DNA of 64,000 nucleotides from Maribacter vaceletii (GTDB lineage: Bacteria > Bacteroidota > Bacteroidia > Flavobacteriales > Flavobacteriaceae). Location: assembly GCF_003634105.1 (NCBI RefSeq), contig NZ_RBIQ01000007.1, positions 124,001 through 188,000 of the forward strand, written 5' to 3'. A program made the position numbers and the translations under genes. This document shows, one piece after another, positions 6,488-46,580 of this stretch. Under the pieces are notes generated by a model. The model did no database searches. It saw only the letters and a program-made list of their open reading frames with translations, and was not told the origin of the DNA. Position 1 is the stretch's first letter. Each line of letters begins with the position of its first letter.

Positions 6488-6559
6488 GCGAAAGTAGCTC
6501 AGGGGTAGAGCATCACCTTGCCAAGGTGGAGGTCGAGGGTTCGAATCCCTTTTTTCGCT
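6488..6559 (+). tRNA. tRNA-Gly (anticodon GCC)
   Basis: The 72-base cloverleaf has acceptor stem GCGAAAG/TTTTCGC (one G-T pair), D arm AGCTC...GAGC, anticodon stem CACCT/AGGTG with loop TTGCCAA, and T arm with GGTTCGAATCC. No CCA is encoded. Discriminator base is T. Confidence 0.96.
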
Positions 6560-6601
6560 CAGATATAATATACCAATTGGCTGTTATTTATAACAGTACA
6601 G

Positions 6602-6685
6602 GCTCGAGTGGTGGAATTGGTAGACACGTTGGACTTAAAATCCAATGGACATTAGTCCGTATGGGTTCAAGTCCCATCTCGAGTA
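6602..6685 (+). tRNA. tRNA-Leu (anticodon TAA)
   Basis: The 84-base class II tRNA has acceptor stem GCTCGAG/CTCGAGT and discriminator A. The anticodon stem is TTGGA/TCCAA with loop CTTAAAA, there is a long variable arm (TGGACATTAGTCCG region), and T arm GGGTTCAAGTCCC. No CCA is encoded. It is 42 bases after tRNA-Gly and probably co-transcribed. Confidence 0.96.
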
Positions 6686-6688
6686 CTA

Positions 6689-8295: not shown

Positions 8296-8299
8296 AATT

Positions 8300-11819: not shown

Positions 11820-13394
11820 TTATTTAATTTTTAATGCCTTCTTTTTTACATTTTCCGAAAAATTGGCGATAGAATTTTCTTTAGATAATTTTGATGGTTT
11901 TAGCTTAATACTTTTCGATAACTCACCTTTTATACTTAATAAATATTCTATACTTTCTAGAGAATTCACATTCGTTAACGTGGTGTTTTTTACATTTTTC
12001 AGTATTAATGCAGAGCCTGCTTCTGGCTTTACAATTAAATTAACAGTATCAAAACTACTATCAACAACATCATCCATTACAATTGCTGGTCTATCATCTG
12101 GGTTTCGCAAACTTAGATTCACATTTTTTAATTTTAAACCTTTAACATGCCTTAAATACATACCATAAGAAGGAAGTACTCCAAAGAAGAGTTGTTCTGG
12201 GTAGCGTGCTTCATCCTCTTTAATAACTTTATCTTTTACATTTTGATTTCCAAACCCTGTATAAGAAAAGTTAATGTCTTCTAATGTTACATTTTCAATA
12301 TAATGTCCTGGTAAACCTGTAAACATAATCCCCTCTGTTGGCGGGTCTATACGCCCGGTAAGTCTTCCTTCTATATTCTTGAATAGAATATTTTTAATTT
12401 GTCCAACCGGTCTGCCTTCCGGTTGAGCATCTGATTTGTAAACTTGTTTTATCGATTTAGAATAATCTCTACCGCGGTTTCCTAACCTTACAAAAATGGG
12501 TCCTCCACAATTGTACATTTTGATATTTGAAATTTCTACATTTTCTATAATAGCCCCATCAACAGCCAGCAATTTTATAGCCCCATGTCTACTATCAAAA
12601 AACTGACAATTGGTAACTTTTATATTTTTGAACCCTGTTTTTGATGCAGTTCCAAATTTTAAAGAAGCCCAGTAACTACTTACGGTACAGTTTTCTACCA
12701 GAAAGTTTTCGCAAATCTTATCTACACTACTTTTAAGACATATCGCATCATCTTCAACCTGTAAATTACAATCTGTAATTTTTACATTGGAACAACCATC
12801 GAAATTCATCCCGTCGTTATTTCTATTCTCCTTGTTATAAACAGAAGTATGATGAATATTTATAGTGTCACATTCTTTAAAATAGACACACCAAGAACCT
12901 GAGTTTTTAATAATAGCATTATCAAACTCAATATTATTACAATTTTCTATTCGAAATAACTTTGGCCTTTCATGACTATGTTTAAACATGTATCCTTTAC
13001 CATTAATTTCTGAACGTGGATGTCCTATAATTTTTATGTTTTTTTCACCATAAGCATAAAACATGCATTTTGAAAAATGTGGCTCTTCTGTTCCTAATGG
13101 GACTTCGGCATAATCCTTAAGGTTAGAACTTCCAAATAATTCCGTATTAGCCTCCATTTTAATAGTGACATTACTTTTTAAAAACAATGTTCCTGTAACA
13201 TATGTTCCTTTTGGAATAATAACGATACCTTTTTCTTTAGAAGCAGCATCAATTGCCATTTGAATGGCTTTTGTACTTAGCTCTATATGTGATTTTTTAG
13301 CTCCAAAATCTAAAATATTAAAAGTCTTTTGTTGGGCTAAAAGAGAGCTAAAACTCAATAAATACAATAGTGTTATTTTATATACCTTTTTCAT
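11820..13394 (-). CDS. GH28-like glycosidase (pectate-lyase-fold beta-helix)
   Basis: Exported right-handed beta-helix enzyme of 524 residues with signal peptide MKKVYKITLLYLLSFSSLLAQ. The N-terminal FNILDFGAK and IVIIPKGTYVTGTLFLKSNV segments are typical of GH28. The catalytic region reads NNDGMNFDG, then VEDDAICLKSS (the paired Asp), then LKFGTASKTGFKNI, and RHGAIKLL. The last two replace the GHG and RIK motifs of fungal polygalacturonases, but this pattern is common among bacterial GH28-like exo-enzymes. The substrate is therefore open: galacturonan, rhamnogalacturonan or another glycan. It starts one base after the GH2 stop, so translation is probably coupled. Confidence 0.8.
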   Translation of the reverse strand: MKKVYKITLLYLLSFSSLLAQQKTFNILDFGAKKSHIELSTKAIQMAIDAASKEKGIVIIPKGTYVTGTLFLKSNVTIKMEANTELFGSSNLKDYAEVPLGTEEPHFSKCMFYAYGEKNIKIIGHPRSEINGKGYMFKHSHERPKLFRIENCNNIEFDNAIIKNSGSWCVYFKECDTINIHHTSVYNKENRNNDGMNFDGCSNVKITDCNLQVEDDAICLKSSVDKICENFLVENCTVSSYWASLKFGTASKTGFKNIKVTNCQFFDSRHGAIKLLAVDGAIIENVEISNIKMYNCGGPIFVRLGNRGRDYSKSIKQVYKSDAQPEGRPVGQIKNILFKNIEGRLTGRIDPPTEGIMFTGLPGHYIENVTLEDINFSYTGFGNQNVKDKVIKEDEARYPEQLFFGVLPSYGMYLRHVKGLKLKNVNLSLRNPDDRPAIVMDDVVDSSFDTVNLIVKPEAGSALILKNVKNTTLTNVNSLESIEYLLSIKGELSKSIKLKPSKLSKENSIANFSENVKKKALKIK

Positions 13395-13395
13395 T

Positions 13396-15867
13396 TTATT
13401 TCGAAATTAAATTTACCGTATTTGAAGATAAACCATCGGATTGCACAGTAAGTTTTACATTACCTGATTCTTTTGTCGACTGAAGAATCACAAGACATTT
13501 ACCATTAAAAGCCATTCGTTGATTAGCTTTAAAAGGTTCTAAGCCCATATTATCTCCATTTCCAACGCCTACTATAGTTACTGGACCTTCAACATCAAAT
13601 CTTAATAGGTTATTTGCTATTGGTACTTCATTACCGTCTTTATCTAAGATGGTACATTCCGCATAAATTAAATCTTGACCATTGGCTTGCATTTCTGTTT
13701 TACGTGTTTCAATTTTTATTTTAGAAGGAGCTCCAGAAGTTTTAACAATTTTCTCCGCAATGTTTTCTCCATTTTTATAAGATACTGCTTTTAACTCTCC
13801 AGGCTTATAAACTATATTCCAAGTTTGGTATTCAACACCTTCAATATTATTTTTTTGCTTTCCTAACGATTTTCCATCCTGAAACAATTCAATTTCATCT
13901 CCATTGGTATAACTATAAACTTGAACTGTTTCCCCTTCCATTCCTTCTAAATTCCAATGCGGAAAAATATGCACCATAGGTTTCTTTGACCACTGACTTT
14001 GATAGAAATAATATCCGTCTTTAGGAAAACCAGCTAAATCTATGGGTGCAAAAGAAGACGAACGTGCTGGCCAACCAAAAGGAATCACTTCTCCTAAATA
14101 GTCCCAACCGGTCCAGATAAACATACCCATTAGATAATCTCTTTCCTTAACAAGTTTCCAAGCTTCCATACCGCTTTCACCACGAATATCTCGTTTTTCT
14201 ACCCAATCAAAAGATTCCTTTTTTTCATATCCAAGTTTATCCCACCAAGCCTTTTTCTTTTCACCGTATAAATATGTTGAACGTGGATAAAATGATTGAG
14301 CTGATTCATGCTCCGTAACTACTGCCATAACATTAGGAAACTTTTCTCTTTCAAGTTTTAATCTCCAATCTTTTATATAATTATATCCATAAATATCACT
14401 TGTAGCGGCTGCCTTTTGATTAGGTCTTTTAAGACTTCCGTAACCATGAACTCCATTAGTTGCAGGTCTATAATCTAGTTCATGAACTATTTCAACCAAA
14501 CGCTTTCCTATTTTTGCTGCACTTTCATAGCGCATTTCAGCAATTTCATTACCAATGCTCCACATGATAACCGAAGGGTGATTACGATCTCTCATTACAA
14601 AATCAGTTAAATCTTTATCTGCCCATTTTTTAAAGACATGTGCATATTTATGTACTAATACTTTCTTTTTTGCTCCATTTTGGGTTGTTGTTGGCGATTT
14701 TGGTGTTTCCCATTCATCAAAGGCTTCATTCATAACTAAAAAACCCATTTCATCACAAACATTCATAAACTCTTCAGAAAACGGATTGTGAGCGGTACGC
14801 ACTGCGTTACATCCCATTTCTCTCAATTTTTCTAACTGACGCTCTATAGTTCTTCTATGAACTGCAGCTCCTAATGGACCACCATCGTGATGTAAGCAAA
14901 CTCCTTTTAATTTGGTAGCCTTTCCATTCAATTTAAATCCATCGCTATTACTATATTCCAAAGTTCTAATTCCGGTTTTAGAAGTTTCAGAATAAATTGT
15001 TTCACCATTTTGTAAAATATCTGTTTTTACAACATATAAATGTGGGGTTTCGGTATCCCATAATAAAGGATTTTCAATAGATAAACTTGATTTATGTTGA
15101 ATAGAATTATTTTTAGTAATTGTTTTAGATTCCTTTTGTAAAGCGACTAAAACACCTTTTTTATCAAAGATTGAAACCTGAATATCGATAAATTTATCTT
15201 CATCAAAATCATTAACAATATTGGTTTCAACAGCAATAGTTGCCTGATTATTTTCAACCTTATTAGCCTTAATATAATTACCCCAAACAGGTATGTATAA
15301 TTTATTGGTTGTTATTAATTTTACATGACGATAAATACCTGTTCCTGTATACCAACGCGCTCCTGGTTGATTTGAATTATCAAGTTTTACAGTTATTACA
15401 TTTTCTTTCCCAAATTTGAGATATTTGGTCATATCGTAATAAAATGCAATGTACCCGAATGGTCTTTTTCCCAGTAAGTTACCATTAATATATACTTCTG
15501 AATTTCTGTAAGCTCCATCGAAATATATAACAGTACGCTTATCCTTGCTACTTTCAGAAACCAAGAATGTTTTTCTATAAGTCACCTTTCCTGTTGGCAA
15601 CCAACCACCTCTAGAAAATGTTGGGTTATCTTTACTAAAGTTTCCTTCAATACTCCAATCATGCGGTAAATTAATAGCTCTCCAATTGGAGTCATCATAG
15701 TTCGTTTTCTCAGAACCTGATATGTCATCCTCATGGAATTTCCATGCGAAATCAAAATTCTCAATAGTATTTATTTGTATTTTTTTTGAATCGTTTGAAC
15801 ATGCAATACTTATTGATGCAATGAATAATATGATTAAACACTTCAGTATATTTTTCATGATTTTCAT
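13396..15867 (-). CDS. Glycoside hydrolase family 2 (beta-galactosidase/beta-glucuronidase type), lipoprotein
   Basis: Retaining exo-beta-glycosidase of 823 residues with lipobox SIAC, C23. Order of domains: jelly-roll sugar-binding (about 35-200, with NLPHDWSIEG and FDGAYRNSEVYING), Ig-like (200-305), TIM barrel (305-600), then Ig-like C-terminal domains including a DUF4982-like and an invasin-like segment. The acid/base is E441 in MWSIGNEI and the nucleophile is E519 or E521 in VVTEHESA. The general layout fits bacterial GH2 beta-galactosidases, but galactoside versus glucuronide preference cannot be decided. The start ATG overlaps the upstream stop as TAATG; an ATG at 15858 is possible. 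Probably removes a non-fucose side sugar. Confidence 0.9.
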   Translation of the reverse strand: MKIMKNILKCLIILFIASISIACSNDSKKIQINTIENFDFAWKFHEDDISGSEKTNYDDSNWRAINLPHDWSIEGNFSKDNPTFSRGGWLPTGKVTYRKTFLVSESSKDKRTVIYFDGAYRNSEVYINGNLLGKRPFGYIAFYYDMTKYLKFGKENVITVKLDNSNQPGARWYTGTGIYRHVKLITTNKLYIPVWGNYIKANKVENNQATIAVETNIVNDFDEDKFIDIQVSIFDKKGVLVALQKESKTITKNNSIQHKSSLSIENPLLWDTETPHLYVVKTDILQNGETIYSETSKTGIRTLEYSNSDGFKLNGKATKLKGVCLHHDGGPLGAAVHRRTIERQLEKLREMGCNAVRTAHNPFSEEFMNVCDEMGFLVMNEAFDEWETPKSPTTTQNGAKKKVLVHKYAHVFKKWADKDLTDFVMRDRNHPSVIMWSIGNEIAEMRYESAAKIGKRLVEIVHELDYRPATNGVHGYGSLKRPNQKAAATSDIYGYNYIKDWRLKLEREKFPNVMAVVTEHESAQSFYPRSTYLYGEKKKAWWDKLGYEKKESFDWVEKRDIRGESGMEAWKLVKERDYLMGMFIWTGWDYLGEVIPFGWPARSSSFAPIDLAGFPKDGYYFYQSQWSKKPMVHIFPHWNLEGMEGETVQVYSYTNGDEIELFQDGKSLGKQKNNIEGVEYQTWNIVYKPGELKAVSYKNGENIAEKIVKTSGAPSKIKIETRKTEMQANGQDLIYAECTILDKDGNEVPIANNLLRFDVEGPVTIVGVGNGDNMGLEPFKANQRMAFNGKCLVILQSTKESGNVKLTVQSDGLSSNTVNLISK

Positions 15868-17270
15868 TAATATTTATTTTCTCCAGCACTAGCTTTATTT
15901 ACAAAAATTTCTCTTGCCTTTTTCATTTTTAAAATATTCGGTAAATGTGGGTCTGGCCAATAATTAACAATGTTTTCTTTATTCCAGTTTTTATATTCTG
16001 CAACTAATTCTTTTACTTTATCTGGCATGATATCAACCAGATTAGTATGTTCGTATGCATCATCTTTTATATTAAATAAGAATAATTCATCTCGTACCGC
16101 TTCTTTTACAAGTTTATAATCTCCTTTACGAACTGCAAATCCGGCCCCATCACTGTATCTCCAAAATAATTTGTCATGTATGCCTTTTTTTGTGATTCCT
16201 TTTGCTACCGGAATTAAATTACCCCCATCAAGCTGTTTTTTAGCTTTAATATTGGCTGCTTTTAGAACTGTTGAAAATATATCGTAGGCTATAACGGGTT
16301 CTTCTATTTTTTGATTTCCATTGAAACCAGCAGGCCAAGACATTAGAAACGGAACTCGAATACCACCTTCAAAAAGTAATCCCTTTTGCCCTCTAAATGG
16401 GTCTTGATTAGACCCCTTACCATGTCCGCCATTATCACTATAAAAGAAAATCAGTGTGTTTTCATATTCCCCTGTTTCTTTTAACTTATTTACTACTTTA
16501 CTTATGCCAGCATCCATTCCAGAAACCATTGCGCCATATGCAGCTCTATCTCCTTGTTCTATATGGTTTACCTTTTCTAAATATGCTTTAGTAGCTTGAA
16601 TTGGCGCATGTGGTGCATTGTAGGCTAAATACATAAAAAATGGTTTCTCTGATTTGCTGTAACTATCAATATATTTTACAGCGGCATTAGAGAAATCATC
16701 GGTTAAATAACTTAAATTCTCAAGAGGTTCTGGTTTTCCATCTCGCATAATTCTATGCCAATTGGTCCAATTCTTCTCCCAATTTTTACCCCAATAATTT
16801 CTTGACCCACCAGAGAATCCAAACCAGTCGTCAAACCCTCTATTATTTGGCCAATACTCTGGAGTGTGTCCTAAATGCCACTTCCCTATGGCACAAGTTT
16901 GATATCCGTTTTTTTTAAGCACTTCAGAAAGAATAGTTTCTTCAAGCGGTAAGCCCATTACAGGACCTTCAAACGCTTTCCCTATATTATTTTCACATCC
17001 AAACCGTTGCTGATATCTTCCTGCCAATAAACCAGCTCTACTTGGTCCACAATAAGAATGCGTAGCGTAACCTGCTGTAAAAACAACACCATCTTTAGCA
17101 ATTTTATCTAATGCTGGTGTTGGAATATCGGTACTTCCATTAAACCCTACATCTGCCCATCCAAGGTCATCTGCAAGAATAATTAGAACATTTGGTTGTT
17201 TAGCCCTTTGCGCTTCTACTGTAAGCATTGTGACAAGATTTAAAATATAAAATAGGAGTTTCTTTTTCAT
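15867..17270 (-). CDS. Sulfatase, family S1
   Basis: Formylglycine sulfatase of 467 residues with a Sec signal peptide (MKKKLLFYILNLVTMLTVEAQ). The metal site is in ILADDLGWADVGFNG. The maturation motif is C74-G-P-S-R in HSYCGPSRAGLLAGRYQ, which marks it as a Cys-type sulfatase. CAIGKWHLG, YLAYNAPHAP and FYSDNGGHG complete the active site. Length is normal for S1. It differs strongly from the other two sulfatases of the operon, so the three probably remove sulfate from different positions or sugars. Its stop overlaps the GH2 start by one base. Confidence 0.94.
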   Translation of the reverse strand: MKKKLLFYILNLVTMLTVEAQRAKQPNVLIILADDLGWADVGFNGSTDIPTPALDKIAKDGVVFTAGYATHSYCGPSRAGLLAGRYQQRFGCENNIGKAFEGPVMGLPLEETILSEVLKKNGYQTCAIGKWHLGHTPEYWPNNRGFDDWFGFSGGSRNYWGKNWEKNWTNWHRIMRDGKPEPLENLSYLTDDFSNAAVKYIDSYSKSEKPFFMYLAYNAPHAPIQATKAYLEKVNHIEQGDRAAYGAMVSGMDAGISKVVNKLKETGEYENTLIFFYSDNGGHGKGSNQDPFRGQKGLLFEGGIRVPFLMSWPAGFNGNQKIEEPVIAYDIFSTVLKAANIKAKKQLDGGNLIPVAKGITKKGIHDKLFWRYSDGAGFAVRKGDYKLVKEAVRDELFLFNIKDDAYEHTNLVDIMPDKVKELVAEYKNWNKENIVNYWPDPHLPNILKMKKAREIFVNKASAGENKY

Positions 17271-17272: not shown

Positions 17273-18634
17273 TTAATTGGATATTATTTTTAGGTTAGGA
17301 TTTTCTTTGTATAATTCTTCAATCGCTTTTTTTGTAATTTTTGTATTCCATAAATACACCCTTTTTAAAGATGGCAGTTTTGCAAAAACAATAATGCTTT
17401 TATCTGTGATTTCGGTATTGTATAAATTAAGTACTTCCAAATGTGCAAGAGTTTCTATATGTTTAACACCTTCATCAGTGATATTGGATTTATGAATATT
17501 TAGATATGTTAGATTTTTAAACGCTGAAAGTCTTTTTAACAAATCATCTGTAAGTCCTGATTTACTTATATCTAACCATGTAATTTGCTCTTTCGCTTTT
17601 TCCAAAGTTTCAAAAGCCGATAGCGTTATTTCGTTATCGAAAAATTTCACATCTAACATGTGATGTTCTGCGGACAAAGGATTTACAAGCCACCCTTGTT
17701 CTGATAATTCTAACACAATTTGTTCATCCAACTTGGGGCTTTTAACCGTTTCATAATAAGGTCTTTTTTTTGTGTTTAATTTAAAATCTCTTTCAAAAAG
17801 ATTTTTTAACTCTTTTGGGAATTTATAAGACAATAATCTGCCGTCAAAAGATGCTCCTTCAGCAATCCACCATTCTAAAAGTTTTAGTTCTGTAAATGTT
17901 AATGCAGTGCCTTTAGGAGGCATAAATTTTTTACTGCTTTCAGGAAAGGTAGATCGTAAAAAAAGTTCACTATTATAAGGTTGAAAAGGTGTAATAACCA
18001 TACCATTATCACCACCATCATTCACTTTATCTGTATTGGTAAGGTTAAGTCCGCCATTAGATTTCGTATCATTATGACAGCTAATACATTTATTGTTCAA
18101 AATAGGTTGTATCAAATGTTTAAATACAACTATAGAATCTGGGTTTGATGGTATTTTAAAATTAGATTTCTCTTCATCCCCTTTTAAAAATTCTGGGGCA
18201 TATGCTGTTAAATAATCGCTTCCATGTGTTAAGTTTCCTCCCAAATGTCCTGTTATAGAAATGAGTACGATTAATAAAATAATTATTGTTTTAGACGAGA
18301 TAAACGGAATGTTTATTTTTCCTGATTTTATAGCCCATCCTAAAAACGATAAAACTGCTAATAAAATTCCTAACCATTGATGCCAAAACAAGGTGTTACT
18401 TTCATACCCTCCTTGTTTGGATAACATATATCCTATTATCGCTGAAGCTACGGCTCCTAGTGCTCCACATAACATAGAAATGGATATAGCTGTATTTAAG
18501 GAGGCATACTTAATTTTATAAGCTGAAGACAGTATTTCCATGATACCTGCCAATAAGAGAAAACCAATAGGCAAATGCACAATTAAAGGGTGAAATCTCC
18601 CTAAAAAAATGACTATATCTGACACTTCACCCAT
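17273..18634 (-). CDS. DUF2231 membrane protein with c-type haem site and LRR tail
   Basis: Three-part membrane protein of 453 residues. Residues 1-140 form about four membrane segments of DUF2231 type (LGRFHPLIVHLPIGF). Residues 160-265 resemble the planctomycete cytochrome C-like domain, with one haem-binding CxxCH (C183-I-S-C-H) and the later motif KFMPPKGTALT, where a Met could be the sixth ligand. Residues 330-453 are leucine-rich repeats of the type LTYLNIHKSNITDEG. A membrane-held electron carrier with a protein-binding tail is my inference. It directly follows the TIM-barrel, DUF1501 and PSD1 genes (12-base gap), as parts of one block. No function is established for this combination. 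Confidence 0.82.
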   Translation of the reverse strand: MGEVSDIVIFLGRFHPLIVHLPIGFLLLAGIMEILSSAYKIKYASLNTAISISMLCGALGAVASAIIGYMLSKQGGYESNTLFWHQWLGILLAVLSFLGWAIKSGKINIPFISSKTIIILLIVLISITGHLGGNLTHGSDYLTAYAPEFLKGDEEKSNFKIPSNPDSIVVFKHLIQPILNNKCISCHNDTKSNGGLNLTNTDKVNDGGDNGMVITPFQPYNSELFLRSTFPESSKKFMPPKGTALTFTELKLLEWWIAEGASFDGRLLSYKFPKELKNLFERDFKLNTKKRPYYETVKSPKLDEQIVLELSEQGWLVNPLSAEHHMLDVKFFDNEITLSAFETLEKAKEQITWLDISKSGLTDDLLKRLSAFKNLTYLNIHKSNITDEGVKHIETLAHLEVLNLYNTEITDKSIIVFAKLPSLKRVYLWNTKITKKAIEELYKENPNLKIISN

Positions 18635-18646
18635 TATCGTTTCGCT

Positions 18647-19555
18647 TTATAAATATCTTTTTTTCCATGTATTCATCATGGCTACATTCATTTTAAACTG
18701 GTCAGCGACGGGTTGCTGAGTGTATGGCAACTGCCACATATAATCCTTTGGTCCAAATTCAGGAGTAATGGTTAACAACTCGTTTTTTTCTTTTTTCATG
18801 TCAACAACTTTATCCCACCAAGCAAAATGCACATCTGTAGCTTTTTTCCATTCTGGCGCCCTAAAATCTGGAACTTGAGGCCCTTCTTTAAATCCTACTC
18901 TACCATGTATATTATCTACTCTTTTAAGAACTTTATTCACAATGTCTTTTTGATCTTCTAGGAATGATTCTGATACATTACACCAATGCGAAATGTCTAA
19001 TGTCAGTCTTAATTCTTTCAATTCATTTAAATAAGACTCGCTTAGATGTGCTGCAAATAAAGCACGCCCTCTATGCGTTTCTTGATAAATGGGAATACCA
19101 CTTTCTTTTGATTTTTGAAGCCCTATCTTAAATAGCTCTACATTTTGCTCAAAGGAGAAATAATCTTTACCTGCATGACAATTGATATGATGTGGTCTAC
19201 AGGCTATCATTTTATTCAGATTATCTGTAAATGTATCTACGTGCTTTTGAAAATTATTGCTTTCTCCACTACTTGCAAATCCACTATATGAAATCCCATA
19301 TTTTGCAATAGCTTCAAAAAAATCAGCCTTTTGCCTCTCATCTTTTGGAGGGCCAACAGCAATACCATCATAGCCCTCTCGTTTTGCTGCTTTTGCTATG
19401 TCATCATAAGAACCTTTAAATCCCCATTTTGTTAAATAAAAGGCCAAACCAAAACCAGATGAATTGGACATTTTCGGAGTTAAAGCTTTCACTCCTGAAA
19501 ATGTTAATCCGGCACTAGCCAATGCTGTTGTTGTTATAAATTGTCTTCGTTTCAT
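18647..19555 (-). CDS. TIM-barrel sugar phosphate isomerase/epimerase-like protein, exported
   Basis: AP-endonuclease-2-like TIM barrel of 302 residues, of the family that includes xylose isomerase-like and hydroxypyruvate isomerase-like enzymes. The N terminus MKRRQFITTTALASAGLTFSG has a twin-arginine and a hydrophobic stretch, so it is probably exported, unlike cytoplasmic sugar isomerases. Conserved acidic and His residues appear in YQETHRGRALF, LTLDISHWCNVSES, NIHGRVG and TITPEFGP, which could bind a divalent metal. The substrate is unknown. In this operon a role in converting a free sugar or keto-sugar is likely, but not shown. It lies six bases after the DUF1501 gene. Confidence 0.8.
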   Translation of the reverse strand: MKRRQFITTTALASAGLTFSGVKALTPKMSNSSGFGLAFYLTKWGFKGSYDDIAKAAKREGYDGIAVGPPKDERQKADFFEAIAKYGISYSGFASSGESNNFQKHVDTFTDNLNKMIACRPHHINCHAGKDYFSFEQNVELFKIGLQKSKESGIPIYQETHRGRALFAAHLSESYLNELKELRLTLDISHWCNVSESFLEDQKDIVNKVLKRVDNIHGRVGFKEGPQVPDFRAPEWKKATDVHFAWWDKVVDMKKEKNELLTITPEFGPKDYMWQLPYTQQPVADQFKMNVAMMNTWKKRYL

Positions 19556-19561
19556 AGCTTA

Positions 19562-21049
19562 CTAACTTAAAATATCTTTAACGACATGCCCGTGAACATC
19601 TGTTAATCGGTATCTTCTACCCTGGTGTTTATAGGTAAAGTGTTCATGATTTATGCCCATAAGATGCATGAGTGTCGCTTGAAAATCATGTACGTGAACC
19701 GGGTTTTCAATGGGGTTAAATCCAAAATCGTCTGTTGCTCCATATGATATTCCAGGTTTAACACCCGCACCGGCCATCCACATAGTGAAAGCATAGGGAT
19801 GATGATCTCTTCCCCAGTTTTTTTCATCCTTTATATTACCCTGTAAAAATGGAGTTCTCCCAAATTCTCCTCCCCAAATCACTAAAGTATCTTCCAACAT
19901 ACCACGTTGTTTTAAGTCCTTTATCAATGCGGCACTTGGGGCATCTGTATCTTGACATTGAATTTTTAATTGATGATTTAAATTTGTATGTTGATCCCAA
20001 CCTGCATGCATACATTGTGTAAATCTCACTCCTCTTTCAGCTAGTCGTCTTGCCATAATGCAATTGTATGCAAAACTCCCTTTTCGCTTAACATCTGGTC
20101 CATACATATCTAACACATGCTGTGGTTCATCAGATAAATCTGTTAATTCAGGAACGCTCATTTGCATTTTATAAGACATCTCATATTGAGAAATTCTAGT
20201 ATTGATTTCTGGATCTCCAAACTCTTGATAATTCATTTCGTTAAGCGCTTGCATATCATCCAGCATTTTTCTCCTTGTATTACGACTAATGCCCTCTGGG
20301 TTTTTTAAATAAAGAACAGGATCTCCTCCACCCCTAAATTTTACACCCTGAAATTTTGAAGGCAAAAAACCACTTCCCCAATAATAATCGTAAAATATTT
20401 GTCCGCAACTTGCTTGTTTATCAACGGAAGTCATGGCCACAAAATCTGGTAAATCTTTAGCTGTACTTCCTAAACCATATGTTAACCATGATCCTATACT
20501 TGGTCTACCGGGTTGTTCATTACCCGTTAAAAAGAATGTAATAGCAGGTGCATGATTTACAGATTCAGTATACATTGACTTGATGAAACATAAATCATCT
20601 GCTACTTTGGCCGTTTCTGGCATAAAGTCTGAAACCCAAGCGCCACTTTGCCCGTGTTGTGCAAAATTGCTAATCTCTCCAATTACAGGTCTATCTAATT
20701 GACCACCTGTCATCGTTGAAAAACGTTTACCATGTGTAAGTTCATCTGGAATCTGTTTACCATGCCATTTTCTTAACATGGGTTTATAATCAAACAAATC
20801 GACATGAGAAGGAGCGCCATTCTGAAATAAATAAATAACACGTTTCGCTTTTGGCGGGAAATGAGGCAATCCTAAGTTATTCTTTAAATGCGCATTTATA
20901 GAACCAATGTTTGAACCAAACAATACACTAGGATTAATCATTGAAGCCAATGCCGCTGCTCCAACCCCTTTTGCCATTTTTCCAAAAAAAGCACGTCTTG
21001 TTAAATTCGCTTGATGCGCTTCAAAAGGATGTAAAATATTCTTTTTCAT
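19562..21049 (-). CDS. DUF1501 family protein, Tat-exported
   Basis: Protein of 495 residues belonging to DUF1501, a family with distant similarity to the alkaline phosphatase/sulfatase superfamily. The N terminus has the twin-arginine signal LTRRAFFGKMAKG followed by a hydrophobic segment, predicting folded export with a cofactor. Recognisable family segments are YLFQNGAPSHVDLFDYKP, HAPAITFFLTGN, RRLAERGVRFTQCMHAGWDQH and VIWGGEFGRTPF. No formylglycine motif is present. The family is nearly always next to DUF1549/DUF1553 genes, as here, where the start overlaps the PSD1 stop (TAATG). Biochemical function is unknown. Confidence 0.9.
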   Translation of the reverse strand: MKKNILHPFEAHQANLTRRAFFGKMAKGVGAAALASMINPSVLFGSNIGSINAHLKNNLGLPHFPPKAKRVIYLFQNGAPSHVDLFDYKPMLRKWHGKQIPDELTHGKRFSTMTGGQLDRPVIGEISNFAQHGQSGAWVSDFMPETAKVADDLCFIKSMYTESVNHAPAITFFLTGNEQPGRPSIGSWLTYGLGSTAKDLPDFVAMTSVDKQASCGQIFYDYYWGSGFLPSKFQGVKFRGGGDPVLYLKNPEGISRNTRRKMLDDMQALNEMNYQEFGDPEINTRISQYEMSYKMQMSVPELTDLSDEPQHVLDMYGPDVKRKGSFAYNCIMARRLAERGVRFTQCMHAGWDQHTNLNHQLKIQCQDTDAPSAALIKDLKQRGMLEDTLVIWGGEFGRTPFLQGNIKDEKNWGRDHHPYAFTMWMAGAGVKPGISYGATDDFGFNPIENPVHVHDFQATLMHLMGINHEHFTYKHQGRRYRLTDVHGHVVKDILS

Positions 21050-23580
21050 TATTGTCTGGTTATGGTTTCATCTAAATTTAAAATCATAGAAGTAATAACA
21101 GCATAGGAAGCTAGTTCTGATACATCTAATTCTTCATCAATAAGATACTCTCCTGCATGAATTATTTTTTCAGCTTCTCTTAAATTTCCATTATATTCTT
21201 CTTTTAATCTTTCTAGTCTATTTTTTAATATGTCTAACTCTTGTTTTTTAGGAGTTCTTGAAGTTATTTTTTTGAAGATATATACAATCCTATCCTCGAT
21301 AGAGTTTTTTTGTTTCATAACCTTCGCCGCTAAAACTCTAGAGGCTTCCAGGTATGTAATATCATTTAAAGTATTTAAAGCATGCAAAGGTGTATTGGTT
21401 CGCATAGCTTTAACGGCGCTTTTTTGTCTAGTAGAATTATCAAACAATACTGTTGGTCCTACTATACGTCTCCAAAAAGTGTATAGAGTTCTTCTGTAAA
21501 GGGCATCACCATGATCTTGCTTGTATTTGATTTTACCGAAGGAAGCTTCTTCCCATATACCTGATGGTTGATATGGTCTTACAGGTTTTCCACCTAAAGA
21601 ATCAACCAGTAAGCCACTTGTAAATAGCGCTTGGTCTCTTAGCATCCATGATGGTAATCTTACTCTGGATGCATGCGATAATAATTTATTCTCTGGGTCT
21701 AATTCTAATATATAACTAGACACTTTTGAGGATTGCCTATACGTTGCACTCATTACTATTTTCTTAAAAAGTGCTTTTAAATCCCAATGATTATCTTGAA
21801 AATCTCTAGATAACCAATCTAATAACTTTGGATGGGTTGGAAGCTCCCCTTGAACACCAAAATCATCAACAGTTTTAACAATACCATTCCCAAAAAAAGC
21901 TTGCCAGTACCTATTAACAGTAACTCTAGAAGTTAACGGTTGTTCTCTGGACACGAGCCATTTAGCCAAGGCTAATCTGTTATTTTTAATATCAATCGGC
22001 AATTTAGGTAAAGCTTTTGGCGTGTTCATATAAACTTGTTCGTCCAATCGCGGGTTATCATAACCGCCTCTGTTCAAAACATAGGTATTACGCTGTTCTT
22101 TTAGATTATCCATTACCATGACTTGAGTAATGGAAGATGCTAATTCGTCATATTCTGTTTTTAAATCGAAAACGTTCTTTATAAGTTTTCCGTATTCATC
22201 CTTTTGTTTAAAATATTTTGATAGTCTTTTGTATTGATTTTTAGCTCTAAGTTTGGCCGGTCTTGCTAAAATTCTAGGGTCTAATCCATTCAAATCTTTT
22301 GCTTTTTTAGATTCGGAAGTAGGTTTCCCTTTTTCTCTAGGAAATTTCACCAATTCAGTTTTATCTACTTCATTGTAAAGTTTTTCTATATAAGCTTGAA
22401 TTTTCTCAATTTCCTTTACTTGGTGCTCTTCTCCTATATTTAATAGAGGAGCCTGATTTCCTCCCCAACCACCTCCTTCTTCAGAGGTTTGATTAAAATA
22501 GTCAAACAATTGATAGTATTCCTTTTGAGAAATAGCATCAAATTTATGATCATGACATCGAGCACATTCTAAAGTCAACCCCAGCCATACCGTACCTGTG
22601 GTTTCTACCCTATCAAAAACATTTACAACACGTGTTTCTTCAGGAATAGTTCCGCCTTCAGTATTATATGGATGATTTCTATTAAAAGCAGAAGCCAAAA
22701 CATCATCTTGAGTTGCATCGGGAATTAAATCTCCTGCCAATTGTCTGATAGTAAAATCATCATATGGCATATTACTGTTAAAAGCTTTTATAACCCAATC
22801 TCTCCAAGGCCACATATCTCTAGTAAAATCACCTTGAAAACCATTAGTATCTGCATATCTAGCGACATCCAACCACTCCCATGCCCAGCGTTCTCCGTAT
22901 CGAGGAGAATTAAGTAAACGATCGACTAAATTTTCATATGCACGCTCTGAAGTATCATTCTTAAAGGCTTGGATGTCTTTAATAGATGGAGGTAGTCCAA
23001 TTAAATCAAAAAACAAACGACGGATTAAAGTTTCTTTATTTGCTTCAGGAGAAGGGTTTAAATTCTTTGATTCTAAATTGTTAAGAACAAAATAGTCTAG
23101 TTCATTTTTTACCCATTCGGTATTTTTTACTTCTGGAAGTGTTGCTTTAATTGGTGCTGTAAACGCCCAATGCTCTTTCCATTCTGCTCCTTGTTCAATC
23201 CATTTAATTAAAAGGGCTTTTTCCCTACTTGTTAATTCTAATTTTGAGTCTGAAGGAGGCATTATAAGCTCATCATCATGAGAAAGGATACGATTTACTA
23301 AATCACTTTCCCAAGGTTTATTGGGATGAATAGCAGATATCTCTTTATCTTTTAACAAAGCAATAGCACTCTCTCTAACATCAAGTCTTAAATCTGCTGC
23401 TCTTGCATTTTCATCTGGTCCATGGCAATGAAAACATCTATCTGATAATATGGGTCTAATATGAAAATTAAAATCGACAACCTTAGGAAGATTTTTGTAC
23501 TCAGAATTTATGGTATCAGGTAGCTTGGAATTACATCCTAGAAAAACAAGTCCTAAAAAAATAAATAAAAACTTTTTCAC
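21049..23580 (-). CDS. PSCyt1-DUF1549-DUF1553 (PSD1) cytochrome, lipoprotein
   Basis: Large exported protein of 843 residues with GTG start and lipobox ending at C16. Domain order: planctomycete cytochrome C-like domain with haem motif C49-F-H-C-H53; DUF1549 (about 150-345, with RRLFFDLIGLPPS and RWAWEWLDVARYADTNG) ending in a second CxxCH, C339-A-R-C-H343; DUF1553 in the C-terminal half (TSRVTVNRYWQAFFGNGIVKT). The family is highly expanded in Planctomycetes and other PVC bacteria next to sulfatases. A periplasmic redox role is inferred from the two haem sites; no reaction is known. It is the first gene of the cytochrome block, 31 bases after the first sulfatase. Confidence 0.92.
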   Translation of the reverse strand: MKKFLFIFLGLVFLGCNSKLPDTINSEYKNLPKVVDFNFHIRPILSDRCFHCHGPDENARAADLRLDVRESAIALLKDKEISAIHPNKPWESDLVNRILSHDDELIMPPSDSKLELTSREKALLIKWIEQGAEWKEHWAFTAPIKATLPEVKNTEWVKNELDYFVLNNLESKNLNPSPEANKETLIRRLFFDLIGLPPSIKDIQAFKNDTSERAYENLVDRLLNSPRYGERWAWEWLDVARYADTNGFQGDFTRDMWPWRDWVIKAFNSNMPYDDFTIRQLAGDLIPDATQDDVLASAFNRNHPYNTEGGTIPEETRVVNVFDRVETTGTVWLGLTLECARCHDHKFDAISQKEYYQLFDYFNQTSEEGGGWGGNQAPLLNIGEEHQVKEIEKIQAYIEKLYNEVDKTELVKFPREKGKPTSESKKAKDLNGLDPRILARPAKLRAKNQYKRLSKYFKQKDEYGKLIKNVFDLKTEYDELASSITQVMVMDNLKEQRNTYVLNRGGYDNPRLDEQVYMNTPKALPKLPIDIKNNRLALAKWLVSREQPLTSRVTVNRYWQAFFGNGIVKTVDDFGVQGELPTHPKLLDWLSRDFQDNHWDLKALFKKIVMSATYRQSSKVSSYILELDPENKLLSHASRVRLPSWMLRDQALFTSGLLVDSLGGKPVRPYQPSGIWEEASFGKIKYKQDHGDALYRRTLYTFWRRIVGPTVLFDNSTRQKSAVKAMRTNTPLHALNTLNDITYLEASRVLAAKVMKQKNSIEDRIVYIFKKITSRTPKKQELDILKNRLERLKEEYNGNLREAEKIIHAGEYLIDEELDVSELASYAVITSMILNLDETITRQ

Positions 23581-23611: not shown

Positions 23612-25150
23612 TTAGTAATATTTCCAAAAATCTACATTGGCCAGTTCATCATGTGATTTATCACCTAACTCTTTAGCCTTTTGTTTCATTTCATTTCGCA
23701 TGGAAGCAACAATCTCTGCATATTCGGGAAAATCTGCCATATTAAAGATTTCCCAAGGGTCTTTAGTAATGTTAAACAATTGTGTAACCCTAGAACCAGA
23801 AATAAAATCCCCACGTTTTCTACTCACATCAGGAGCTCTAACATATTCTATCAATTTATAATCTCCTTTTCTATAAGCACGTTGGTGCTGGCGATACACA
23901 TGATAGGTGTAGTCTCTTACGCTCTCTGTTTCATTATTTATTATAGGTAATAAACTTGTTCCAGACACAGAGGCAGGTTTCTTAATACCTATCATATCGC
24001 AAAGTGTTGGTAATATGTCTAAATTGTAACAAAAAGCATCCTCTCTTCTCCCTTTATTAGCTTCATCTATTAATCCTCCGGAAATAATAAAAGGAATATG
24101 CACACCATCTTCATCATATATATTTTGCTTACCTAACAATCCATGATTTCCAACAGCTAAACCACTGTCTCCTGCCATTATAATAATAGTATTTTCATAC
24201 AATCCGCTTTCTTTTAAAGCTATAATAACCCTACCGATTTGGGCGTCTAAATGTGTGATTATTGAATAATAATCAGATAAATGTCTTTTTGATATTTCTT
24301 CTGTTCGAGGCCATACATCTAATAGCTCATCTCTTAAAACAATATGTCCATTATCAAAGGGGTGTTGTGGCATATACGAAGGCAATAATCCAATTTCATC
24401 TTCAGGGTACATGTCTTTATATTTTTTCGGAGCTTGTCTAGGATCATGCGGTGTTGGAAAGGCCAAATAATGAAAGAAAGGTTTTTTCTTATTGTAATTA
24501 GAAATAAAATCAACACTAGCATCTGCTAACACTTCAGAAACATGGGGTCCTTTTTTTTCGGTTGCTGTTGGTCCTCTTTTATCAGTTTTAGCAATGGGGC
24601 GTCTTTTTACATTTCCATTTTCATCATACTCCAACAAATAAACATCTTCCATTACATATTTTCCATCTGCATGCCAGTCACTATAAGGCATTCTATATTG
24701 GTCTGTTAAATATGCAGGTTTACCACAAAGTTTATCTCCAGTATCAAAAGATCTAGATAGAGACCCAAAATCTTGATGCCACTTTCCAACATGATGGGCA
24801 TGGTAGCCTTCTTTTTTAAACATTTCCCCCATTGTTGTGTGCTCTTTAGGAATATCGAACCCACGACCCTGTAATTGAAAAACGTTTCTTCCTGTAAGTA
24901 ACATTGCTCTACTAGGCACACAAGTTGCACCGGAAAACGACCCCATTAAGTATGCTTTTGTAAACGCAATACCATCATGAGCAAGATTGTCTAAATTGGG
25001 GGTTTTTACAGCTTCACCCCCTAATGCGTGAACTCCAGAATAACGATGATCATCCGTATAAATTACTAGAACATTAGGTTTGGTTTCTTTTTGTGCTTTT
25101 AACTGAATAGATAAAAAGACCAGTACACTTAGAAGTATTATTTTTTTCAT
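23612..25150 (-). CDS. Sulfatase, family S1 (first gene of the operon)
   Basis: Formylglycine sulfatase of 512 residues with Sec signal peptide MKKIILLSVLVFLSIQLKAQ. The metal site is in VLVIYTDDHRYSGVHALGG, and the maturation motif is C-V-P-S-R in GATCVPSRAMLLTGRN (Cys at about 77). HHVGKWHQDFGS, HYLAFPTPHDPR and IIMAGDSGLAVGNHG complete the active site; GDSG replaces the usual SDNG. The ATG at 25150 is chosen because it begins the signal peptide; an upstream ATG at 25174 would add eight residues. A strong promoter lies about 100 bases upstream. It heads the eleven-gene unit. Confidence 0.93.
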   Translation of the reverse strand: MKKIILLSVLVFLSIQLKAQKETKPNVLVIYTDDHRYSGVHALGGEAVKTPNLDNLAHDGIAFTKAYLMGSFSGATCVPSRAMLLTGRNVFQLQGRGFDIPKEHTTMGEMFKKEGYHAHHVGKWHQDFGSLSRSFDTGDKLCGKPAYLTDQYRMPYSDWHADGKYVMEDVYLLEYDENGNVKRRPIAKTDKRGPTATEKKGPHVSEVLADASVDFISNYNKKKPFFHYLAFPTPHDPRQAPKKYKDMYPEDEIGLLPSYMPQHPFDNGHIVLRDELLDVWPRTEEISKRHLSDYYSIITHLDAQIGRVIIALKESGLYENTIIIMAGDSGLAVGNHGLLGKQNIYDEDGVHIPFIISGGLIDEANKGRREDAFCYNLDILPTLCDMIGIKKPASVSGTSLLPIINNETESVRDYTYHVYRQHQRAYRKGDYKLIEYVRAPDVSRKRGDFISGSRVTQLFNITKDPWEIFNMADFPEYAEIVASMRNEMKQKAKELGDKSHDELANVDFWKYY

Positions 25151-25200
25151 TATTAATAAATTAATTTCTATCATTTAAATTGAGAATCTACATTAATCGT

Positions 25201-25373: not shown

Positions 25374-26951
25374 ATGCTGTATTTCAGACTTTTAACAATC
25401 ATATTAATGATTACATTCATTAAACCTAAAGTCTATGCTTCAATTTCAGACACTATACCACCAATAAATACAACTATACAGCAATCAAAAAAATTCATTC
25501 AAGAAGGATATTCTATTGCTCATGAAAATCAAGAAAAAGCGTATCAACATTTTTTAAATGGAGCTACATATTATAAATTGAAAAAAGATACTACGGCATA
25601 TATAAATTGTATGCTTGGACTATCTGAAATTAAAATAAGACAAGGTAAGTTTAACAGGTCGTTTGAAATATTATGGGATATATTTCCTAAGGCAAAACAA
25701 AATTCTAATAAAAATTCATTAGCGTTGCTTCATCGAAAATTAGGGTCATTATATGGATTATATGGAAAGGACAGTCTTTCTCTATATCATCTAAAAAAAA
25801 GTGTTGAAATCGTGAAAAAAAATAATGCCCCTGAAAATCTTTTGCCTAGTTCTTATTTGCCATTAGCAATACAGTGTATTAACACTAAAAAATACGATAC
25901 CGCTTTAAAATACTTAGACTCTTGTTATTTAAGTAATAAAAAAAAAAATAGGTTAATTTATATTGACGCCTATTATGGACATATACACACTAAAAAGAAA
26001 GATTATAGAAAAGCAAACATATATTTAAAAGGTCTTACATCTAAATTTAAAGAAAGAAAATTAGGCTTTTTAGCTATGGTTTGCTCTTTTAATGGAGATT
26101 TAAAATTATCCCTTAAAGAGACGGATAGTGCTATTTATTATTACAAAAAATCTCTAGAAGTTATAAACACCATGAAAGTGCATATTGAACAAAAAACGGA
26201 AGTTTTAGAGCAACTTGCTACCTTACATTTTAAAATCAATAAAAAAGCACAAGCTTTTAACTATATGAAAAGTGCTAAAGCAATCTCTGATAGCCTTTTC
26301 CACACTCAAAGTGAACATAACAAAGAATTATTTGAAATTAAAAACAAATACCAAGAAGATCTATCTAAAAAAGAAGCCAAAATAATCGCTCAAAACAAAC
26401 TCATTGAATTAAAAGATATAGCTAGCTTTAGACAAAAACTTTTAATCAGTTTACTAATTTTATTAGCCGCTATTGGAATTTTAACTTTTAGACAACGGTA
26501 CCGAATAAAAAAAATGCTTTACAATAAAGAAAAAAATGATGCTATTTTAGAAATAAGAAATAAAGAACTTACAGCTAACGCCCTACAAATTATTGAAAAA
26601 GACCATACCGTTAATGAACTATTAGAAACAATTAAAGAAAACATACCTCAAAAATATAAGTCACTAAATAACAAATACAAGCAAAGTAATGAAAAGTTAT
26701 GGAACGATTTTCATCTTCAATTCACTAAAACCAACAGTGAATTTTATAAACGTTTACTTGAAATACACTCAAAACTTACTCCAAACGATTTAAAATGTTG
26801 TGCCCTCATAAAGCTAAAATTTGACAGTAAAGAAATGTCTCAGATTTTAGGAATCTCATTACATAGTGTGCATATGGCACGCTCTAGAGTTCGCAAAAAA
26901 TTAAATTTATCCAGAGAAGAAAACTTAAGTAACTATATCGCTATGATTTAA
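25374..26951 (+). CDS. TPR membrane regulator with LuxR-type HTH
   Basis: One-component transcription regulator of 525 residues of a kind common in Flavobacteriia. An N-terminal hydrophobic segment acts as signal or anchor. Tetratricopeptide-like helices fill about 35-320, presumably in the periplasm. One membrane segment (LLISLLILLAAIGILTF, about 356-372) is followed by a coiled coil, and a C-terminal helix-turn-helix (LTPNDLKCCALIKLKFDSKE through HMARSRVRKKLNL) resembles LuxR/GerE. No kinase or receiver domain is present. Its divergent position next to the operon promoter suggests that it controls the sulfatase operon, perhaps by sensing a glycan fragment; this is inference. Confidence 0.85.
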   Translation: MLYFRLLTIILMITFIKPKVYASISDTIPPINTTIQQSKKFIQEGYSIAHENQEKAYQHFLNGATYYKLKKDTTAYINCMLGLSEIKIRQGKFNRSFEILWDIFPKAKQNSNKNSLALLHRKLGSLYGLYGKDSLSLYHLKKSVEIVKKNNAPENLLPSSYLPLAIQCINTKKYDTALKYLDSCYLSNKKKNRLIYIDAYYGHIHTKKKDYRKANIYLKGLTSKFKERKLGFLAMVCSFNGDLKLSLKETDSAIYYYKKSLEVINTMKVHIEQKTEVLEQLATLHFKINKKAQAFNYMKSAKAISDSLFHTQSEHNKELFEIKNKYQEDLSKKEAKIIAQNKLIELKDIASFRQKLLISLLILLAAIGILTFRQRYRIKKMLYNKEKNDAILEIRNKELTANALQIIEKDHTVNELLETIKENIPQKYKSLNNKYKQSNEKLWNDFHLQFTKTNSEFYKRLLEIHSKLTPNDLKCCALIKLKFDSKEMSQILGISLHSVHMARSRVRKKLNLSREENLSNYIAMI

Positions 26952-29674: not shown

Positions 29675-29687
29675 ATTCTTACAAGCT

Positions 29688-34387: not shown

Positions 34388-34432
34388 AACTGTTTTATGA
34401 ATTAACACGAATTCAATCCACAGCAAAACAAG

Positions 34433-45358: not shown

Positions 45359-45391
45359 TTTTGATTGTTTTTGATTATTGATTGATGCTTT

Positions 45392-46549: not shown

Positions 46550-46580
46550 TTTATTTGTGTTTATTGTATAATTGGTTTTA

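Follow-up and report, generated by a model that had tools for sequence, protein, structure and literature searches.

The DUF1501 family is strongly expanded in planctomycetes. PSD1 and PSCyt2 were each counted 41 times in Rhodopirellula baltica, and the passages of that study on these domains propose a redox role for PSD1 (PMC2754498). The sections of a study of freshwater Verrucomicrobia that concern these families describe proteins that combine PSCyt with PSD domains, mention CBMs and propose a role in carbohydrate use; PSCyt2 genes there lie mostly beside families of unknown genes, with sulfatases frequent nearby (PMC5615132). DUF1501 is also the partner of DUF1800 in a gene pair reported with a bacterial chitin synthase and a sugar epimerase, in the part of PMC5122149 that treats it. 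The literature found on PSD1, PSCyt2 and DUF1501 reports no reaction in the portions that deal with these families. Because sulfatase vicinity with a carbohydrate role for PSCyt genes and a redox proposal for PSD1 already appear in the cited passages, the earlier note's term "undescribed system" for the block analyzed here was too strong.

This block lies in Maribacter vaceletii, in a window of 64,000 nucleotides (the whole stretch of DNA analyzed). It resembles the Verrucomicrobia sets, as the same passages of PMC5615132 present them, in carrying both domain types on a single chain with sulfatases nearby, but it differs in its residence in Flavobacteriaceae, apparently through transfer, and in its DUF2231-PSCyt1 partner and TIM barrel, both absent from the PVC gene chains examined. 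As in the DUF1800-DUF1501 pair, to the extent that PMC5122149 details it, DUF1501 is the second gene and carries a twin-arginine signal; DUF1800, however, has no CxxCH, whereas PSD1 has two, and hhalign comparisons of PSD1 with DUF1800 were not significant (four profile sets, E = 0.02 to 0.26; reversed controls, 0.05 to 0.37).

An 11-gene run around the block

The four block genes were described in the earlier note as consecutive, with gaps of 12 bases or fewer, and as held between an upstream sulfatase and a downstream sulfatase/glycosidase set. Both descriptions hold at this locus: all four genes are on one strand, separated in transcription order by a 1-base overlap (PSD1/DUF1501), 6 bases (DUF1501/TIM), and 12 bases (TIM/DUF2231), and the flanking sulfatases lie 31 bases before and 2 bases after the block. 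Given the shared strand, the tight gaps, and the GH2, GH28, third sulfatase, and two GH29 genes downstream, we treat 25174 to 6796 as one 11-gene run, whose target looks like a sulphated sugar polymer.

Features of the run and its divergent neighbor in the window
Feature	Coordinates	Strand	Support
Divergent TPR protein	25374..26951	+	Translation; Pfam TPR_12 only
S1-type sulfatase, first gene of the run, motif CVPSRAMLLTG	23612..25174	-	Pfam, 162 bits, and motif
PSCyt1-PSCyt2(DUF1549)-PSD1(DUF1553) protein, 843 aa	21049..23580	-	Pfam
DUF1501	19562..21049	-	Pfam, 528 bits
Xylose-isomerase-like (XI-like) TIM barrel	18647..19555	-	AP_endonuc_2 match below cutoff
DUF2231 membrane domain, PSCyt1 haem-c motif, and LRR	17273..18634	-	Pfam
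S1-type sulfatase, motif CGPSRAGLLAG	15867..17270	-	Pfam, 228 bits, and motif
GH2; closest NCBIfam model, beta-galactosidase GalB	13396..15867	-	Pfam; GalB 732 bits, below cutoff of 900
GH28	11820..13394	-	Pfam
S1-type sulfatase, motif CAPSRASLLTG	9875..11812	-	Pfam, 224 bits, and motif
GH29 alpha-L-fucosidase	8300..9826	-	Pfam, 201 bits
GH29 alpha-L-fucosidase, last gene of the run	6796..8316	-	Pfam, 202 bits

Pfam found no SusC or SusD family member among 20 open reading frames scanned from 6796 to 38933, so the run is not of the SusCD type by this measure. The divergent TPR protein is a possible regulator of the run; its C terminus resembles a LuxR-type HTH by eye, and Pfam returned no HTH family. 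Two tRNA genes end at 6686, next to the last gene, and a tRNA-borne island was considered and discarded, with no direct repeat of a tRNA end among the repeats listed for 6300 to 27800. G+C content is uninformative on origin (block, 34 to 35.5%; window, 29 to 38%).

Recurrence and conserved residues of the block proteins

Elsewhere in the family, 20 TIM loci were retrieved; 14 of them repeat the order PSD1-DUF1501-TIM-DUF2231 cytochrome, the remaining six being without PSD1. Of 45 loci selected solely through PSCyt2, 44 have DUF1501 adjoining PSD1 (exception, L276); together these counts argue that the block is not a chance arrangement. Pairing was also counted at 102 of 112, a figure biased because some of its loci, unlike the PSCyt2-chosen set, were fetched through DUF1501. 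Mirror-tree correlation between PSD1 and DUF1501 reached r = 0.92 (102 pairs, 0 of 2,000 permutations, also within phylum groups).

All three family domains of the PSD1 protein exceed their Pfam cutoffs (PSCyt1, 58 bits versus 22; PSCyt2/DUF1549, 288 versus 29.8; PSD1/DUF1553, 295 versus 28.5). Its two CxxCH haem-c motifs, at residues 49 to 53 and 339 to 343, are kept in 109 of 112 homologues; C339, C342, and H343 are invariant among 76 aligned sequences, and C49, C52, and H53 occur in at least 90%. The N terminus looks lipoprotein-like by eye. A PDB fold search with the AlphaFold2 model (pLDDT 93.5, pTM 0.91) gave no match at an E value of 0.001 or below; cd1 nitrite reductase appeared at E = 2.4. 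Pfam DUF1800 matches seven of the 11 PSD1 rows (eight fusions, described below, and three unfused proteins) of one alignment at E ≤ 1 (best, 1.2e-5; C-terminal in the row shown), and matched two PSD1 proteins in another scan.

The DUF1501 assignment is secure (PF07394, 528 bits versus a cutoff of 27), and the N terminus is of the RR type and Tat-like by eye. Its AlphaFold2 model (pLDDT 85.6, pTM 0.84) matched alkaline phosphatase in Foldseek at E = 3.9e-7, with TM-scores of 0.28 to 0.40 and large rmsd, and hhalign aligned its C-terminal half with sulfatases at a probability of 93.5 (reversed-profile control, 0.4). The predicted fold is thus that of the alkaline phosphatase/sulfatase superfamily, shared with S1 sulfatases. 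H166, D352, H354, and R398 are present in all 117 homologues and in 16 of 16 divergent DUF1501 proteins. Unlike in S1 sulfatases, the universal H166 seems to occupy the position of the catalytic Cys, with which it aligns in a low-confidence part of the hhalign alignment; the formylglycine motif C/S-x-P/A-S-R is absent, all 117 homologues having His where the motif would align, and DUF1501 was not classed as a sulfatase. At residue 77, the expected site of a first metal-ligand Asp, 116 of 117 homologues carry S, A, N, or G. DUF1501 relatives also pair with DUF1800, and since that partner is CxxCH-free, DUF1501 could catalyze a non-redox reaction.

The TIM barrel had been called an exported, epimerase-like protein. 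Its RR-type N terminus fits export, but the match to AP_endonuc_2 (PF01261) stays below the cutoff (23 versus 31.1 bits). E159, D187, H217, and E266, presumably the Glu-Asp-His-Glu metal ligands of the XI-like superfamily, are invariant in 12 of 12 aligned sequences, and the best PDB profile match is a weak one to AsbF (E = 0.0087), whose substrate is a 3-keto compound. In the DUF2231 protein, H15, H20, H85, H130, the CxxCH motif (C183, C186, H187), and M238 are found in 63 of 63 aligned sequences and H137 in 62. DUF2231-PSCyt1 is fused to PSD1 in 12 proteins, each roughly 945 aa long (L095 and L211 to L221) and each with an adjoining DUF1501 gene; Pfam scans of eight found DUF2231, PSCyt1, PSCyt2, and PSD1 in every one. 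These fusions place the DUF2231 and PSD1 genes in one path. The M. vaceletii genome has TatC and cytochrome c assembly genes.

Origin and glycan settings

Transfer from PVC bacteria had been suggested for the whole block. In both the PSD1 and DUF1501 trees, the window pair forms one clade with three other Flavobacteriaceae inside a PVC clade, and AU tests rejected Bacteroidota monophyly for both proteins (run on 42 rows out of 117 and 43 out of 112 with long rows dropped, subsets and groups being chosen after the trees were seen). These two results support acquisition of the pair from planctomycete/verrucomicrobial bacteria. For the trees, a scan of genome contigs supplied the best 80 of at least 594 stretches, and L086 was left out as a copy of L098. 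These are quick trees, one with 37 open branches among 114 inner ones and the other with 28 among 109. The PVC relatives include several MAGs, with L099 on an 8.3-kb contig; L100 lies on 1.6 Mb. The suggestion does not extend to the TIM and DUF2231 proteins, whose nearest relatives are in Bacteroidota: of 40 genomes from outside Bacteroidota, PVC ones included, three have TIM relatives (E ≤ 1e-5, 33 to 36% identity), and the absence of such relatives from the other 37 led us to reject whole-block transfer. TIM identity to L058 and L059 is 52 to 53%, a measure used because the TIM tree was set aside for two rows of length 10 and only four starred branches out of 22. The block, as judged from its homologues, is a mosaic of a PVC-derived pair and two genes with Bacteroidota relatives.

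We compared observed with expected sulfatase counts around the loci, identifying sulfatases in loci with a purpose-built HMM (22 sequences) and taking genome totals from Pfam (first look, at least 63 in four genomes). Across 34 loci, 11 were observed versus 5.9 expected (Poisson P = 0.04), and type-B loci had 17 versus 6.5 (P = 4e-4; based on the 31 of 45 whose genomes had a sulfatase count, which was lacking for 14), with six type-B loci entering both counts and both P values too small because sulfatases cluster and loci are related. A sulfatase is present in 10 of 45 type-B loci. Fourteen type-A loci had 2 versus 2.0 expected, and the three closest relatives of the window block had 0 versus 0.6 within the 20 kb examined. 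We abandoned the proposed lock to sulfatases as a general rule and kept it for type B, the one enriched subtype.

Four of eight type-C loci carry an N-glycan set: GH92 in all four, GH20 in L083, L085, and L091, Asparaginase_2 in L080, L085, and L091, GH18 in L083, and GH29 in L091. Elsewhere, an XI-like TIM, a GFO/IDH/MocA, and a GH109-type gene surround PSD1-DUF1501 (L125), a Tat-signal GFO/IDH/MocA gene directly precedes PSD1 in L100, one of the PVC relatives that the window pair has, and an NHL propeller protein fills the TIM slot in many related operons. In a scan of operon companions alone (80 proteins from named loci, out of 154 compiled across the whole set of loci), each family occurred in at most four and sugar-oxidation enzymes were just a few.

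Possible roles of the block

The two haem-c motifs of PSD1, its DUF2231 partner with five near-universal histidines and a CxxCH, and the 12 fusions point to the redox role that the earlier note had inferred. Our leading reading, held with a little less than even confidence, is a periplasmic sugar or oligosaccharide oxidation module feeding the quinone pool. A sugar or oligosaccharide freed by the neighboring sulfatases and glycosidases would be bound and oxidized by one complex of PSD1 and DUF1501, the latter with residues that look like a metal site; the haems of PSD1 would hand electrons to the PSCyt1 haem in the DUF2231 protein, and these would then cross its membrane domain, where the five histidines probably form a haem-b or quinone site, to the quinone pool. 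The keto sugar may next be the substrate of the TIM barrel, acting as an epimerase, dehydratase, or lyase that depends on a metal. This proposed chemistry and the conserved divalent-metal ligand residues resemble 3-keto-glycoside lyases, which use a divalent metal and a catalytic His according to the relevant part of PMC13273386; the TIM protein is set apart by its weak similarity to solved structures and its RR-type signal. Counting for sugar oxidation, besides the haem motifs and fusions, are the mirrored PSD1 and DUF1501 trees, the TatC and cytochrome c assembly genes, the glycan enzymes of the window run and the type-C N-glycan loci, the invariant TIM ligands, the AsbF match, and the GFO/IDH/MocA genes of L125 and L100. 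Against it, Pfam found no flavin, molybdopterin, or PQQ domain in the four block proteins and hence no recognized center to take electrons from a sugar; the DUF1501-DUF1800 pairing, most subtypes without sulfatase enrichment, and the few oxidation companions also count against it. Broadened to the family, PSD1-DUF1501 would be a new class of respiratory sugar oxidoreductase spread laterally as a cassette for different glycan operons, which is possible if doubtful. PSD1 would then be a di-haem enzyme with a fold not in the PDB, DUF1501 a His-centered metal-binding sister of sulfatases, and the DUF2231 haem-b/c protein their wiring to the quinone pool; lateral transfer and an exchange of partners would bring the cassette into operons for sulphated glycans or N-glycans, and DUF1800-DUF1501 would be the haem-free counterpart.

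The wiring evidence serves identically for reverse flow, in which quinol would reduce the DUF2231 cytochrome and then PSD1, whose PSCyt2 haem would activate O2 or H2O2 to attack or modify a glycan or protein, as MauG or an oxidase might. We consider this unlikely. It would suit the CCP_MauG (MauG-type peroxidase) gene after the module in L126 and the Fe/Mn superoxide dismutase gene directly before PSD1 in L165, which are equally compatible with oxygen chemistry, and the inverse distribution against glycoside hydrolases and surface-water genome association stated in the pertinent passages of PMC5615132. However, each of these two genes was verified in just one locus, and the PSD1 fold had no peroxidase or oxidase similarity at E ≤ 0.001 in the PDB search.

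A further reading, also improbable, assigns catalysis to DUF1501, as an ester hydrolase or transferase that depends on a metal and has His replacing formylglycine; PSD1 would be a binding scaffold with structural or sensory haems. The alkaline phosphatase and sulfatase matches, the four universal residues, and the pairing with haem-motif-free DUF1800 speak for such an enzyme, but the Foldseek TM-scores are low, and it leaves the conserved PSD1 haem motifs and the DUF2231 fusions unexplained. We regard a passenger status as very unlikely, in which the block would be a PVC pair carried into a flavobacterial glycan operon with no role in degrading the glycan of this run: the three closest relatives lack sulfatases within the 20 kb examined, and a relative sharing 60% identity with the sulfatase that opens the run (L254, genome G180) has GH2- and sulfatase-like neighbors without a PSD1 gene within 20 kb, but here four open genes with gaps of at most 31 bases are packed between two sulfatases, and the pair recurs in other kinds of glycan operon.

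The flavobacterial copies of PSD1-DUF1501 lie in compact operons, where companion genes hint at the substrate. With the DUF2231 fusion, the swappable TIM and propeller partners, and the N-glycan and sulphated-glycan settings, the loose idea of a redox role, perhaps on carbohydrates, can be recast as assays that name both substrates and residues.

The sulfatase and glycosidase run

The four-gene block was claimed in the earlier note to sit inside a sulfatase/glycosidase run, and this is correct: the genes share one strand, gaps are tight and sulfatases lie on both sides. Spacing within the block is a 1-base overlap, 6 bases and 12 bases, the flanking genes lie 31 and 2 bases away, and the run's widest intergenic gap measures 48 bases. 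Each of the three sulfatases in the run keeps the C-x-P-S-R motif, and FGE-type genes are present in the genome, which encodes 55 sulfatases, two PSCyt2 genes, two full-length DUF1501 and two divergent DUF1501. A scan of 20 ORFs in the 6796-38933 interval found no SusC/SusD family. The tRNA pair that follows MutS ends ~110 bases from the run's last gene and is a possible insertion point; the direct repeats listed near it (6300-27800) include no tRNA-end repeat.

Features of the window in and around the gene run
Feature	Position	Strand	Content
11-gene run	25174-6796	-	sulfatase, PSD1, DUF1501, TIM barrel, DUF2231-PSCyt1-LRR, sulfatase, GH2, GH28, sulfatase, GH29, GH29
PSD1	21049-23580	-	PSCyt1-PSCyt2(DUF1549)-PSD1(DUF1553)
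DUF1501	19562-21049	-	
TIM	18647-19555	-	xylose-isomerase-like barrel
DUF2231 protein	17273-18634	-	DUF2231-PSCyt1-LRR
MutS	3767-6388		
tRNA pair	6488-6686		tRNA-Gly, tRNA-Leu
OmpA, PorP/SprF genes	27758-34426		with 1242-aa CHU_C protein, DUF11 and Calx-beta domains (type IX secretion cargo)
Efflux genes	44021-53531		OEP, HlyD, three MacB/FtsX permeases among scanned ORFs

Origin and make-up of the block

PSD1 subtypes were set by length and tree, under labels coined here. Type A proteins are about 910 aa long and accompanied by TIM; those of type B measure 1066-1109 aa and frequently have an NHL propeller as partner; those of type C have 780-795 aa, in many cases alongside NHL and a chitobiase-C-like protein. 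The window type (the window, L093, L096 and L098, the same locus as L086) spans 843-850 aa, and a fused type of about 945 aa has DUF2231-PSCyt1 joined to PSD1. Among 199 family genomes, PSCyt2 occurs in 47, DUF1501 in 121 (divergent ones counted), DUF1800 in 110 and the TIM protein in 20; the sole other sampled genome of the genus (G152) is without PSCyt2. The 20 TIM loci, which leave out matches in G015 and G112, have the order PSD1-DUF1501-TIM-cytochrome in 14 cases, and PSD1 was not seen in six (L070, L073-L077). A symporter gene comes next in the chain in 8 of these 14, one called by a Pfam match (Na_sulph_symp) and the remaining seven by similarity to it.

Outside loci in both trees were drawn from the best 80 of at least 594 matching contig stretches, and support is SH-aLRT from quick searches. 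In the DUF1501 tree (117 rows), the window and three Flavobacteriaceae form one clade (support 100), nested in an 11-row set (100) with five Verrucomicrobiota and two Planctomycetota, itself nested in a 19-row set (95) holding 15 PVC rows. The PSD1 tree (112 rows) recovers the same four-row clade (100), which joins four Verrucomicrobiota (96) within a 19-row set containing 15 PVC rows (99). Of the PVC relatives, L099 lies on a small MAG contig and L100 on a 1.6-Mb contig. An all-Bacteroidota grouping was rejected on reduced sets of 42 rows (19 constrained; lnL 196 lower, p 3e-111) and 43 rows (19 constrained; lnL 118 lower, p 5e-6), the groups for these monophyly tests having been named after the trees were seen. 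The genome's second copy (L078), a PSD1-DUF1501-NHL-DUF2231 module of Bacteroidota ancestry (G000:C1, about 407-416 kb) with three sulfatases in 20 kb, clusters with Tamlana and other Bacteroidota in both trees. That the window-type pair descends from an old duplication with many losses, and not from transfer, is less likely because the clade is seen in so few genomes: frames of the window type's length are listed for only 4 of the 199 genomes, and these are the ones that make up the clade.

The partner genes have other kin. The window's TIM shares 52-53% identity with the TIM proteins of L058 and L059, both beside type-A PSD1; the window's DUF2231 gene pairs with that of L093 (99), then with other Bacteroidota, and occurs in none of the PVC chains examined. 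In L093 an NHL protein occupies the slot held by TIM in the window. This Bacteroidota kinship and the NHL/TIM swap argue for a mosaic, in which PVC bacteria would have supplied the PSD1-DUF1501 pair, and Bacteroidota modules its partners. The proposed PVC transfer is thus supported for PSD1 and DUF1501, in both trees, and not supported for the TIM and DUF2231 genes.

Pairing and genomic company

DUF1501 lies immediately 3' of PSD1 in 102 of 112 rows (median gap 5 bases), many of these loci having been fetched by DUF1501, and adjoins PSD1 in 44 of 45 type-B loci picked by PSCyt2; in the lone exception (L276) a GH2-like gene is next instead. Over 102 pairs, PSD1 and DUF1501 patristic distances show a correlation of 0.92; in 2000 mirror-tree permutations, whether unrestricted or kept within Bacteroidota/other, the highest value reached was 0.20. 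Mirrored trees would be expected of an obligate PSD1-DUF1501 complex; joint transfer of neighbours yields the same pattern. The window's genome also holds two DUF1800-DUF1501 pairs (L242, 7648-10254; L243, 7465-10718), and CxxCH is absent from the DUF1800 proteins read.

Sulfatases are enriched near type B (17 observed vs 6.5 expected, 31 loci), with type A (2 vs 2.0, 14 loci), type C (1 vs 1.4, 8 loci) and the window's closest relatives (0 vs 0.6, 3 loci) near or below expectation; the three remaining loci had 1 vs 0.5. Kin of the window's first sulfatase stand 1-2 ORFs before PSD1 in L078, L090, L255, L256 and L276. Across 80 named loci, a sulfatase is present in 8/39 Bacteroidota, 4/25 Verrucomicrobiota, 2/12 Planctomycetota, 1/1 unassigned and 0/3 others. 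No family exceeds four members among 80 scanned companions (sulfatases, SDR and GFO/IDH/MocA, four each; AP_endonuc_2, ThuA, FAA_hydrolase and FGE, two each). At L125, PSD1-DUF1501 is accompanied by an FGE-like gene, an XI-like TIM, GFO/IDH/MocA and a GH109-type gene. Four type-C loci (L080, L083, L085, L091) carry GH92, with GH20 in three, GH18 in L083, GH29 in L091 and Asparaginase_2 (glycosylasparaginase-like) genes in three; among the genes scanned, a predicted N-glycan gene set thus surrounds PSD1-DUF1501 in 4/8 type-C loci.

Predicted folds, proposed electron path and prior knowledge

The PSD1 model (pLDDT 93.5, pTM 0.91) has no PDB match at E <= 0.001 (Foldseek, 350,542 chains; best E 1.1). 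The DUF1501 model (pLDDT 85.6) has 210 (best E 3.9e-7) with TM-scores of merely 0.28-0.40, and the 50 listed are alkaline phosphatases, sulfatases and a phosphonate monoester hydrolase. Profile alignment of DUF1501 with sulfatases is firm solely over C-terminal residues 359-471 (prob 93.5, reversed control 0.4). H166 aligns with the sulfatase formylglycine Cys in global and extended modes alike, within a low-confidence part of the alignment, and in the model it opens a helix following a strand, the arrangement known from sulfatases. H166, D352, H354 and R398 are present in 117/117 proteins and in 16/16 divergent ones, of which 11 go with DUF1800 and 5 with fused PSD1. At E395 all 117 have Glu and the 16 have Glu or Asp; at H416 all 117 have His, as do 11/16.

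PSD1 carries CxxCH motifs at residues 49-53 and 339-343, the latter invariant across 76 aligned sequences. Across the DUF2231 protein and its homologues, counting those that are fused, H15, H20, H85, H130, CxxCH and M238 are conserved in 63/63 and H137 in 62/63. Hydropathy gives three membrane segments at the chosen threshold, and we read a possible fourth near H85. Because of the conserved histidines, the DUF2231 domain may bind haem b or quinone. DUF2231-PSCyt1 and PSD1 share one chain in 12 proteins (L095, L211-L221), with DUF1501 adjoining, and all eight fused proteins scanned match DUF2231, PSCyt1, PSCyt2 and PSD1. Fused L095 also shows a rhamnosidase-N/GH2-N-like stretch (Pfam, row shown). 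In Tamlana, a di-haem CCP_MauG gene immediately follows the module (L126, 14009-15178).

In earlier publications, sulfatase-adjacent PSCyt genes have been given a proposed carbohydrate role (PMC5615132), PSD1 already bears a 'redox' label (PMC2754498), DUF1501-DUF1800 is placed alongside chitin synthase and a sugar epimerase (PMC5122149), and DUF1501 appears merely as an amplicon hit (PMC4982196). To call the block an undescribed system was therefore an overstatement, the first two links being in print. Among the open-access papers listed, none was recognisable as dealing with the function of these families, their Bacteroidota modules, the DUF2231 fusion or the N-glycan operons. The proposed sugar-redox mechanism of the block is plausible, and the strongest additions made here are the DUF2231 fusion, the predicted PSD1 fold unmatched in the PDB, the universal DUF1501 His and the N-glycan setting.
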